A DNA stretch of 64,000 bases, taken from the IMG/VR virus record IMGVR_UViG_3300008116_000011, positions 1 to 64,000 of that record; one strand, 5' to 3'. The position numbers and the translations under genes are program-made. The notes below the pieces were generated by a model. It did no database searches and was not told the DNA's origin. It worked only from the letters and a program-made list of their open reading frames with translations. Source of the stretch: a virus. Of this stretch, positions 7,805 through 59,726 are shown piece by piece; the first letter of the stretch is position 1, and each line of letters opens with the position of its first letter.

Positions 7805-8719
7805 TTATTTTTTATTTAAATGCTCAAATAAATTAGGTTTTGCTTGAGCAAAATTACGCATAATAATAGCTGCTCTAGAATTAGCTTCATTTTCATCATC
7901 ACTACCTGTAGTTCCAGAGTCTGATTTTAAGCGACCTTCTAAATCTTGTTTATAATGTACTAATTCATGTGCTAATGTTCTAAAAATATCTGCTGGGTGT
8001 CTTTTGGCTATTACTATGTTAATTGATTTGTCACTTGGTCTATATCCACCCCAAGAGCGCAAATCAATTGCTTCTTGTGAGTCGTTAGATAAGGTAATTT
8101 TAGGTAGTTTTTCTAGTTGAAGTTCATCCATTACATGCTTCATAAACTCACTAACTAAACTTTTATTTAAATTTTCTTTTAATATTTCAACATCTTGAGG
8201 ATCAACAATAATTGCTTTAATTTTATCTTTACCCAAAAGTTTATGTGCAAAATATCTATGATGACCATCTACAATTTGATACTTATTTCCTAATTCACGT
8301 ACAATAATTGGAGGTAATTCTTTACCTGCTTTAATAGTTTTTATAAGATCTTTTAATGTGGCTTTAGATTTAGGCTCTAACATTTTACTAGCAGGCTCAT
8401 TTAATAGTAACATATCTAATGGAATATCACTAGTAGGCATTTTACTAATTTCTATTTCACTGTAGTCAACATCTGCACCTTGACCTCCAGGATATATTTT
8501 AACTTTAATTTCTAGATTTAATTTATCAAGTTTTGTATAATATTTTGGATCTTCTACTAAATGATCCATAGCAATACGTGCAGCACGTTTTGCATTATCA
8601 GTATGTTCTTTTTCAACTTTAACACCCTTTTTTAATTCTTTTTTAAGGGTATCTACATCTACCTTATGTTTTTTTGCAATGTCTCCAATAGACATTCCTT
8701 TAGATAATCCGTTTGCCAT
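7805..8719 (-). CDS. DUF5661-like / ParB-like / zincin metallopeptidase fusion
   Basis: The 304-residue protein joins three modules. Residues 1-63 resemble DUF5661 (MSIGDIAKKHKV, then HTDNAKRAARIAMDHL). Residues 100-175 are a ParB-type nuclease fold with L-P-P-I-I-V and D-G-H-H-R-Y at 151-156. Residues 205-300 are a zincin with H-E-L-V-H at 251-255 (catalytic Glu252) and downstream Glu276/278 as a possible third ligand. Mixed architectures of this sort are known as polyvalent proteins of phages and conjugative elements. They are thought to enter the host with DNA and counter defences. A hairpin terminator and an AT-rich TATATTTATA box precede it. Confidence 0.8.
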   Translation of the reverse strand: MANGLSKGMSIGDIAKKHKVDVDTLKKELKKGVKVEKEHTDNAKRAARIAMDHLVEDPKYYTKLDKLNLEIKVKIYPGGQGADVDYSEIEISKMPTSDIPLDMLLLNEPASKMLEPKSKATLKDLIKTIKAGKELPPIIVRELGNKYQIVDGHHRYFAHKLLGKDKIKAIIVDPQDVEILKENLNKSLVSEFMKHVMDELQLEKLPKITLSNDSQEAIDLRSWGGYRPSDKSINIVIAKRHPADIFRTLAHELVHYKQDLEGRLKSDSGTTGSDDENEANSRAAIIMRNFAQAKPNLFEHLNKK

Positions 8720-57281: not shown

Positions 57282-57306
57282 ATATTTTTTAATAAATATC
57301 TTTAGC

Positions 57307-57461
57307 TGTCAGGGAAGGATTCGAACCTTCACGCAGCGATTCAATAAGCAACAAATTAAGCCGGCTTTGTGGTCAACCCCTATTACTTATCTATTTCGAT
57401 ATCTGCGCCCACGAGACGAGTGGGTGTGTCTGCCGTGTAGCTACCCTTTCACCACCTGACA
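57307..57461 (-). tRNA. tRNA-like gene with a large inserted arm (anticodon unassigned)
   Basis: The minus strand forms a 7-bp acceptor stem (TGTCAGG/CCTGACA), a D-arm (GTG, GGG-containing loop, CAC) and a normal T-arm (GAAGG-TTCGAAT-CCTTC). The span is 155 nt against about 75-90 in ordinary tRNAs. The excess is mostly a helical arm between CGCAG and CTGCG (57332-57407) with inner pairs ATAAG/CTTAT and ACAAA/TTTGT. A possible anticodon arm CCCAC-TCGTCTC-GTGGG would read GUC (Asp) but has C instead of U at position 33. It may be an intron, a huge variable arm or a non-tRNA RNA. Confidence 0.6.
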
Positions 57462-57463
57462 AT

Positions 57464-57664
57464 TTACTGTTTCCTTTCTTTATACAATCTAATCCATGTC
57501 ATAGAAACATCCACAGCCATTAATACTGGGGCCATAACTAGTATAGCTAATGTTTCTAATCCTGGCGATGCATAAAGTGGATCTTCATTTCTTTTAGAGT
57601 AACTTGTATACATTTTGTACACACAGTAAATAACCGAAATAATATAAATTAATGTTAATATCAT
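57464..57664 (-). CDS. Two-helix membrane protein
   Basis: A 66-residue protein: MILTLIYIISVIYCVYKMYT (membrane helix), a polar middle (SKRNEDPLYASPGL), and a second hydrophobic part (LAILVMAPVLMAVDVSM) with basic end (YKERKQ). It lies between the tRNA-like gene and the structured-RNA terminator. Could be a small holin-type or accessory protein. Confidence 0.55.
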   Translation of the reverse strand: MILTLIYIISVIYCVYKMYTSYSKRNEDPLYASPGLETLAILVMAPVLMAVDVSMTWIRLYKERKQ

Positions 57665-57687
57665 ATGTTAAATATACGTTAAAAAAA

Positions 57688-57713
57688 TAGGGTAACCAAA
57701 AATGGTTACCCTA
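57688..57713 (-). terminator. Bidirectional terminator after the structured RNA
   Basis: A 10-bp perfect stem (TAGGGTAACC/GGTTACCCTA) with a 6-nt A-rich loop, flanked by A-run on one side and T-run on the other. It would end minus-strand transcripts from the RNA at 57721-58052. Confidence 0.9.
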
Positions 57714-57720
57714 AAAAATT

Positions 57721-58052
57721 GATGGGAATAACGATTACCCACAATCCCTGGACGGACCCCTTTTCACCTATAGTCCACAAAGATGATCAGTCTAAGTGTT
57801 AAGACTAGCTGGATTGTCTACCAGCAACGCCTGCGGAGATCGTCTTGATTTATCTTCGGCGTATCCAGAGCACTGTTGGGTTGCGCATTCTACCCTTAGT
57901 GATGGTGGTTTTAACTCATCCGTCTGTGATACCCAACTCAACGGTTTTTCAACCGTCTCGCCAGTGCCTTAGTCCCTCTCAAGAACTTATTCAGCCACAG
58001 TTTGTAAATGACTTAGCCTGGGACAGTGAACCAGGAGAACTGTGCTAAGTAC
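57721..58052 (-). ncRNA. Unidentified structured RNA (about 330 nt)
   Basis: This gene-free region on the minus strand folds into nested helices with perfect or near-perfect pairing: ACTTAG/CTAAGT enclosing CCTGG/CCAGG, a pseudoknot pair CACAGTT/AACTGTG, GCACTG/CAGTGC, GTTGGG/CCCAAC, ACGGTT-TTTC-AACCGT, CTGGAT/ATCCAG around ACGCC/GGCGT, and AGTCT/AGACT. A TATATTTATATAC box lies just before it and a strong terminator follows. It is flanked by tRNA-type genes. It does not show RNase P, 6S or group I intron hallmarks that I can recognise (no GAGGAAAGUCC, no ordered P-Q-R-S). Family and function unknown. Confidence 0.6.
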
Positions 58053-58056
58053 TTGT

Positions 58057-58070
58057 GTATATAAATATAT
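58057..58070 (-). promoter_or_regulatory. TATATTTATATAC box before the structured RNA
   Basis: Minus-strand TATATTTATATAC (with flanking ATA) 5-15 nt before the first helix of the RNA. The expected -33 TTTG is not present at 19-20 nt. Confidence 0.45.
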
Positions 58071-58153
58071 CAAAGATCTAGAAAACCGCTAATTTATTTA
58101 TTTTTTTTTAATATTTATACTCGATCTATTATTATTAACTAAAACAATTTATT

Positions 58154-58321
58154 ATGAAAGATCAATTATTAGGACTTATCAGACATGCTTTAACCTTTGT
58201 TGGTGGTATTGTTGTTACTAAAGGTTTAATTGATGAAAGTTTGTCTCAAGAAGTAATCGGTGGTATTATGACGTTGGTTGGTGCTGTTTGGTCCATCGTT
58301 TCTAAAAAGAAAGTTGCTTAA
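58154..58321 (+). CDS. Holin (two-helix small holin)
   Basis: This 55-residue protein is on the plus strand. It has two membrane helices (LTFVGGIVVTKGLI and GGIMTLVGAVWSIVS), a short loop with DESLSQEVIG and a basic C-terminus (KKKVA), the typical layout of small class II-type phage holins (similar to Pam3 gp28-like holins, from memory). Holins form holes in the inner membrane at lysis. A strong terminator follows. The opposite orientation lets its timing differ from neighbours. Confidence 0.75.
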   Translation: MKDQLLGLIRHALTFVGGIVVTKGLIDESLSQEVIGGIMTLVGAVWSIVSKKKVA

Positions 58322-58547: not shown

Positions 58548-58555
58548 TTATTAGG

Positions 58556-58636
58556 TAAGTAGAAGATGGGTGCGTGGACATCTACTTTTACGATTGGCAT
58601 TTCTTTACGCTCTTGCGTTCCGTCATATCCCAATCA
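58556..58636 (-). other. Hairpin-containing intergenic stretch
   Basis: Nested hairpins (GATTGG/CCAATC enclosing ACGC-AAGA-GCGT) lie between the lipoprotein and tRNA-Thr. A 20-codon frame (MPIVKVDVHAPIFYLP) is present but has no support. Confidence 0.35.
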
Positions 58637-58649
58637 ACCTAATTTTAAT

Positions 58650-58889
58650 TTACTTAATTACTTCTCTTTTGGTAGGATTTCCTAGTTCTCCATCTTTTGC
58701 TGGGAAAACTTCTTCTACAGGTGAACCTCCACCTTGAATAACTCCTACTGAAGAATCAGCAACTGCTACTGAGTCAGCAACTACTGTAGAATCTACTACT
58801 AATGAATCTACTGGTTGAGATTCACTTGATGAGCCGTTGCAGCTAGTAAGTGCAACTAATGTGGCCAAAGCCATAACTGTTTTTTTCAT
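58650..58889 (-). CDS. Small lipoprotein
   Basis: The 79-residue protein has a lipoprotein signal (MKKTVMALATLVALTSC, lipobox A-L-T-S-C), followed by a Ser/Asp/Val-rich low-complexity stretch (DSLVVDSTVVADSVAVADSS). It would be anchored in the outer or inner membrane. A small lipoprotein near a holin can be an o-spanin, but this one is acidic and disordered. Confidence 0.65.
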   Translation of the reverse strand: MKKTVMALATLVALTSCNGSSSESQPVDSLVVDSTVVADSVAVADSSVGVIQGGGSPVEEVFPAKDGELGNPTKREVIK

Positions 58890-59302: not shown

Positions 59303-59339
59303 TTTGTTTTTTGTTTTTTAATTAATAAATATAAATCAG

Positions 59340-59726
59340 TGGAGATAGTGGGATTCGAACCCACGTCTCCGAAAGAGACAATAATACTAACGTCTCACAT
59401 GCTTAGTACTGCTTGCGCTGCACCGTAAGGGCTGACCTGGTTAGGGTCAAATTCCACCACTTGATTTTATGACTATCAAGAAAACTAACTCACAGTCCTT
59501 ATTTAACGAGTCGATCGTGAATACTCGGTGGTATTCTGTTCCTAGGTTACTCACACCCGATGCGGACTAAGCAAATGTTGCTTCGTCGGCGCCTACGAAC
59601 GCCATAAGGTCGTCGAAGGTCATGGTTGACATTTCGTCATTTATTGTTTAGTATCTTCTAAGGCAGTATACTCAAATGCCTGCATGTAGTATTACCTCTG
59701 CATCCGGATCAATACCGGTTATCCCC
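59340..59726 (-). ncRNA. ssrA: Transfer-messenger RNA (tmRNA)
   Basis: The minus-strand RNA of 387 nt has the tmRNA hallmarks: GGGGATA at the 5' end pairing with TATCTCC at the 3' end, with the third pair G-U (the alanine identity pair), a degenerate D-arm (CCGGTATTGATCCGG), a T-arm GTGGG-TTCGAAT-CCCAC preceded by a GTCTC/GAGAC stem, helix 2 (TAATACTA/TAGTATTA), a first pseudoknot (GGCA/TGCC with AGTAT/ATACT), and the downstream AGTCC/GGACT, GAATAC/GTATTC and CTTGAT/ATCAAG elements. It rescues stalled ribosomes by trans-translation. A TTTGGAGACC promoter lies upstream. Its tag is unusual (see the tag reading frame). Confidence 0.93.
59567..59638 (-). other. tmRNA tag reading frame (23 residues, atypical)
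   Basis: Eleven nt after the first pseudoknot, in the position of the resume codon, a frame reads GAC GAA ATG TCA and continues to DEMSTMTFDDLMAFVGADE, ending A-T-F-A before TAG. Length (23) is above the usual 8-15 and the end lacks the common LAA or VAA. Confidence 0.6.

Follow-up and report, generated by a model that had tools for sequence, protein, structure and literature searches.

The analysed stretch of DNA, hereafter the window, comprises the first 64 kb of a record of 174,437 bases of virus DNA, and its minus strand carries nearly all of its genes. A Bacteroidota host is likely, because the baseplate protein of the window is nearest to that of Flavobacterium phage immuto (43.6% identity). 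Close to tRNA-Thr, tRNA-Leu, a tmRNA and a tRNA-like gene lies a structured RNA, whose parts and surroundings are as follows:

59339–59726, minus strand: tmRNA, in the same cluster as the RNA
58154–58321, plus strand: small holin gene (PF23987)
58065–58078, minus strand: boxA-like GATCTTTGATATAT, upstream of the RNA, of putative function; similar sequences lie before homologues
58005–58052, minus strand: lineage-specific 5' extension, with no equivalent in relatives whose 5' flank was read
57718–58004, minus strand: conserved structured RNA (match to model R1, 285.8 bits; covariation over 14 loci)
57966–57995, minus strand: 5' core GCUGAAUAAGUUCUUGAGAGGGACUAAGGC, the signature motif of manA RNA, within the RF01745 alignment
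57943–57954, minus strand: P3 hairpin GGUUGAAAAACC, with two-sided changes in 3 of 4 pairs
57918–57923, minus strand: 5' strand of long-range helix P4, ACGGAU, pairing with 57757–57752
57808–57825, minus strand: HP A GCUGGUAGACAAUCCAGC, the first manA-type 3' hairpin (GGUA...AAUCC), within the RF01745 alignment; its stem covaries
57771–57807, minus strand: P9 (UAGUC/GACUA), capped by the P10 hairpin, with covariation
57752–57757, minus strand: 3' strand of P4, GUCCGU, with covariation
57722–57742, minus strand: HP B GUGGGUAAUCGUUAUUCCCAU, the second manA-type 3' hairpin
57681–57714, minus strand: intrinsic terminator UAGGGUAACCAUUUUUGGUUACCCUAUUUUUUU; L227 and L091 have terminators at the same place
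57464–57664, minus strand: 66-aa ORF, starting just past the terminator

The G+C content of the RNA is 47%, against 31.7% for the window. The conserved part spans 58004–57718 and the terminator runs on to 57681, so that the whole RNA, including the first ~48 nt (58052–58005) peculiar to the window genome, reads from 58052 to 57681. The direction follows from the terminator hairpin (57690–57711, arms GGGTAACCA/TGGTTACCC), after which a run of U's occurs on the minus strand only. Sequences resembling the boxA-like element also precede the RNAs of L219, L222, L091 and L233, and tmRNAs. Folding of 58070–57675 was compared with shuffled sequences and gave z = -2.25, with 1 of 100 shuffles folding equally well; single-sequence folding thus sets the region moderately apart and is by itself weak support for structure.

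The tRNA-like gene at 57303–57462 (minus strand) has GTCAGG...CCTGAC ends, a T-loop GGTTCGAATCC and a long conserved insertion (ACACCCACTCGTCTCGTGGGCGC ... TTGACCACAAAGCCGGCT); it was not called by ARAGORN, and it is conserved in relatives (L086 7507–7660; L227 ~11470–11305). Between tRNAs, at 58549–58650 (minus strand), there is a second conserved structured intergenic RNA, GGTTGATTGG...CCAATCGTAAAAGTAGATGTCCACGCACCCATCTTCTACTT, with counterparts at L086 7682–7800 and L002 5405–5478. The predicted tag of the tmRNA is unusually long (DEMSTMTFDDLMAFVGADEATFA), and its last residues vary among relatives (DYAVAA in L002). The syntenic relative L086 has a tmRNA-like sequence uncalled by ARAGORN and, beside its tRNA cluster (7900–8370), more tRNA-like sequences with large insertions.

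A BLASTN search of phages with the window RNA as query gave no match, and the RNA was absent from baseplate-related or syntenic viral records. The syntenic records without it include L086 and L002, and it is therefore not essential for this phage group. Scans with patterns of RF01745 (manA) motifs led to L091, a divergent manA match that lies in a tRNA cluster and has a terminator of its own, and to L090/L093. A pattern on the 3' part common to the window and L091 then yielded L219, L220, L222, L224, L226, L227 and L230, while BLAST with the L091 RNA as query reached the 735-kb phage LR756501, and the LR756501 sequence as query reached the Lak megaphages (giant Prevotella phages) A1, A2, B1–B9 and C1, of which five loci were read. 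Homologues were placed at 14 loci, namely IMG/VR phage contigs, the five Lak loci and LR756501, with identities to the window RNA from 90% (L227) down to 45–47% (Lak). A scan of the 174-kb record with R1 found a single copy of the RNA, and LR756501, Lak-A1 and Lak-B9 likewise have one per genome. Pattern matches L216–L218 were dropped as chance matches in coding sequence, as were L221, L223, L225, L228, L229, L231 and L232 upon inspection. An L230 query that included its tRNA retrieved essentially tRNA matches, and the L230 RNA by itself retrieved only short Vibrio-phage matches (~25 nt). A search of 297 Bacteroidota genomes returned zero matches, a result that shows little, as the search had no positive control.

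Nine sequences excluding Lak were aligned with plain MAFFT (alignment A2), and a covariance model, R1, was built from them, with 289 positions and 53 base pairs in 11 helices, one of them long-range. In A2, 93.5% of cells are paired under the 53-pair structure, against 77.1% in shuffles; two-sided changes occur in 32 pairs, and the covariation score is 0.514 against 0.214, a level matched by 0 of 500 shuffles. When partners were shifted along the alignment, pairing fell to 37–48%, a control biased in favour of the structure because the structure was partly derived from the A2 sequences. R1 matched the five Lak loci, unseen in training, with 104–119 bits (E≤4e-33). With these loci fitted to R1 (alignment A5, 14 sequences), the paired fraction of cells is 94.2%, and two-sided changes are seen in 41 of the 53 pairs. 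The structured RNA is real and conserved across phages.

Sequence turnover with retained pairing extends to individual helices. In the 5' core, a helix (57995–57993/57968–57966) encloses a hairpin (57987–57982/57976–57971), and two-sided changes are found in 8 of 9 pairs with 100% of cells paired; the corresponding pattern, CTGAATAAN{6,36}TAAGG, occurs once in the 174-kb record. Two-sided changes affect every pair of P4 (6/6, 94% of cells paired), P9 (5/5) and P10 (8/8), and between groups these three helices show near-complete sequence turnover while pairing is kept. Pairing between the 5' and 3' flanks was compared with permuted flanks: the native combination was equalled in 10 of 40320 permutations (native included). 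This end-closing helix is strong in L219, L220, L222, L233 and Lak, and weak in the window and L227.

These results partly bear out a first-pass annotation of the window, which had described a gene-free structured RNA with a strong terminator among tRNA-type genes. The structured RNA is gene-free and G+C-rich, and covariation across its homologues is far stronger evidence than the folding z; the terminator is intrinsic, with its U-run on the minus strand; and two tRNAs, the tmRNA and the tRNA-like gene lie nearby. The span given then, 57721–58052, is corrected to 58004–57718 for the conserved RNA, 58052–58005 being genome-specific. A pseudoknot, CACAGTT/AACTGTG, had also been proposed. The helix exists (58044–58038 with 58002–57996) and crosses CTTAG/CTAAG (58049–58045 with 58016–58012), but it is not conserved, its 5' strand being absent in relatives whose 5' flank was read; a 7-bp stem arises by chance in 5.5% of shuffles of the 62-nt stretch and, when all 332 nt are shuffled, in 91% of cases. 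The eight helices listed earlier give way to 11 covarying ones, mostly with different pairings. The promoter-like box could not be confirmed; the boxA-like element lies at 58078–58065.

The RNA was compared with Rfam, where no family matched at its gathering score. With relaxed thresholds, RF01745 (manA) aligned to 58015–57798 with 19.8 bits (E 0.0048; gathering score 55.2), covering the conserved CUGAAUAA, UAAGG and GGUA..AAUCC motifs. The manA 5' core feature, CUGAAUAA-hairpin-UAAGG, is present exactly at 57995–57966 with covarying stems, and the manA 3' hairpin, GGUA...AAUCC after UUG, is present twice, as HP A and as the variant HP B; in the 3' part of the RNA, RF01745 positions 124–182 match 57785–57722 with 10.9 bits. 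Relatives gave 33.5 (L219), 29.0 (L220), 26.4 (L091) and 23.9 bits (L230), and two matches were obtained on the Lak-B1 RNA, each weak alone (5', 20.4 bits, E 0.13; 3', 19.1 bits, E 0.31). Family members score 18–33 bits overall, all under the gathering score. Judged by sequence and fold, the RNA is therefore a divergent, enlarged relative of manA and not a filed member of RF01745. The new phage RNA class near tRNAs that had been suggested thus largely stands, given the Rfam result, the covariation and the location of nearly all homologues in tRNA clusters, and is qualified by this relationship. In the reverse comparison R1, which contains no canonical manA sequence, matched canonical marine manA loci with 19–26 bits (E 1e-6 to 3e-4), although these loci had been picked by manA motif pattern and the matches are not fully independent. 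Canonical manA aligns in R1 to the 5' core plus HP B, and RF01745 aligns to the core plus HP A; both alignments are consistent with a doubled module. The simplest reading of the sequence is that the RNA comprises two manA-like modules, the second one compact.

The surroundings of the RNA and of canonical manA were also compared. Canonical manA, filed as cis-regulatory (RF01745; PMC2864571), has a same-strand ORF start within 400 nt at 101 of 111 loci. By eye, several of these ORFs, in marine phage contigs (L096–L215), resemble gp32 (single-strand DNA-binding protein), transaldolase or ThyX genes, with manA on their upstream side. Most homologues of the window RNA, as against this 5' UTR position, precede tRNA or tRNA-like genes, and the RNA adjoins such genes in Lak, L219, L220, L222, L224, L226, L227, L230 and L091. 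Among Lak types the preceding tRNA varies while the RNA is nearly unchanged, and apart from tRNAs we found no neighbour gene recurring across members. Some members have their own terminator; others lack a GC-rich one. A tRNA setting occurs within manA itself, as in L090/L093 a true manA (RF01745, 67.9 bits) immediately precedes tRNA-Leu within an array of phage tRNAs (L093 5450–7052). This position in L093 clashes with the cis-regulatory filing of manA.

We consider it likely that this is a non-coding RNA gene in its own right, carried by large Bacteroidota-type phages: an RNA of ~290 nt with two manA-like modules, which acts in trans and most plausibly has a role in translation. One module would consist of the 5' core and HP A and the other, more compact, would end in HP B; the long-range helix would tie the two together, as would the closing end helix in most members. 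The RNA would be transcribed together with the tRNA/tmRNA region, released when transcription stops at its terminator or when the tRNAs are processed, and, stable and structured, would then act in trans. Its likeliest partner would be the translation machinery brought by the phage, and it may homodimerise by way of its palindromic P10 loop. Trans action and a link to translation are suggested by the neighbourhood.

It is also conceivable that the RNA is a leader of the 66-aa ORF (57664–57464), a riboswitch-type attenuator in which ligand sensing by the manA-type modules would govern the terminator at 57714–57681. The order in the window (RNA, terminator, and an ORF that begins right after it) would suit such a leader, as would the filing of RF01745 as cis-regulatory and the location of canonical manA before genes (PMC2864571). 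In L227, however, the RNA lies between a lipoprotein-like ORF and tRNA-Met, which the RNA and its terminator precede, and the homologue of the 66-aa ORF is ~0.8 kb off, with tRNA-Met, one further ORF and the holin gene in between. The RNA thus moves as a unit and is not the leader of that ORF there; other homologues have no GC-rich terminator or are followed by a tRNA or tRNA-like gene, and we regard the leader as improbable. A role as guide or scaffold in a nuclease or defence system, or as a ribozyme or an intron, to which size and complexity alone would point, is very improbable: Rfam gave no match to RNase P RNA, introns, HEARO or CRISPR-related families, models for RNase P RNA, tmRNA and group I/II introns gave none at 57718–58004, and neighbours vary among members, with only tRNAs recurring.

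A more specific form of the independent trans-acting RNA would be an RNA-only assembly like those of GOLLD and ROOL, in which copies joined at their palindromic loops, as dimers or oligomers, would package tRNAs or ribosomes or keep hold of them. Like the window RNA, GOLLD and ROOL are found near phage tRNA islands, and they form RNA cages (PMC12286853). The P10 loop, CUGAUCA (57790–57784), contains the palindrome UGAUCA, which is found in 8 of 9 non-Lak alignment loci and is replaced by another palindrome, UCAUGA, in Lak. This replacement is a G-C to C-G swap between two symmetrically placed loop bases, which are unable to pair inside a single loop; the paired change is left unexplained by one hairpin loop and suggests a kissing dimer of the RNA. 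The Lak change counts as one event, however, the palindrome has shrunk to GAUC in the 735-kb phage, and the loop might alternatively pair intramolecularly with an upstream GAU element. The RNA, at ~290 nt, is also half the size of ROOL, and GOLLD and ROOL covariance models gave no match up to E = 10. We therefore regard such an assembly as possible but doubtful. Mimicry of an anticodon loop by CUGAUCA was rejected, having only length and U33 in its favour and being lost in Lak. The fullest version of the preferred reading, a widespread two-module tandem manA-like RNA of megaphage tRNA islands that self-associates by kissing of its palindromic loops and affects translation in trans, is put forward tentatively and is less likely than the independent RNA gene as such.

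The RNA is an uncatalogued phage RNA related to manA, but larger and standing alone. Megaphage genomes thereby gain a well-supported structured RNA, for which Rfam and the searched literature list none; no description was found in the open-access papers searched on structured RNAs of Lak and huge phages, which is not proof of novelty, nor is it described in the passages on manA RNA that were consulted. This unsolved motif gains a second, probably trans-type context, and if the fullest version of the reading is correct, manA, an orphan 'riboswitch candidate', would be recast as a module that occurs in free RNA as well. The RNA would also be a small, testable companion to the GOLLD and ROOL cage RNAs, likewise of phage tRNA islands, and its covariation is strong enough for direct design of probing experiments and mutants.

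Like the tmRNA (59339–59726), the RNA is encoded in the tRNA cluster; unlike tmRNA, it has no tRNA-like end, tag frame or Rfam match to that class. With GOLLD and ROOL it shares the character of a structured phage RNA near tRNA islands, the function of both being unsolved (PMC12286853), but it is much shorter, matches neither in Rfam by sequence or structure, and has an oligomer only hinted at by its palindromic loop. The manA RNAs of L090/L093, which share its tRNA setting, lack the second module and the P9/P10 domain, and R1 scores only 20.2 bits there. The closest likeness is to manA as described by Weinberg et al. (2010; RF01745, PMC2864571), with which the RNA has in common the 5' core UG-CUGAAUAA-hairpin-UAAGG, the UUG and GGUA...AAUCC hairpin, an end-closing helix in most members, though weak in the window, and occurrence in phages; it differs from manA in length (~290 versus 192 nt), in the doubled hairpin motif, in the additional P4, P9 and P10, and in lying among tRNA genes rather than in 5' UTRs.
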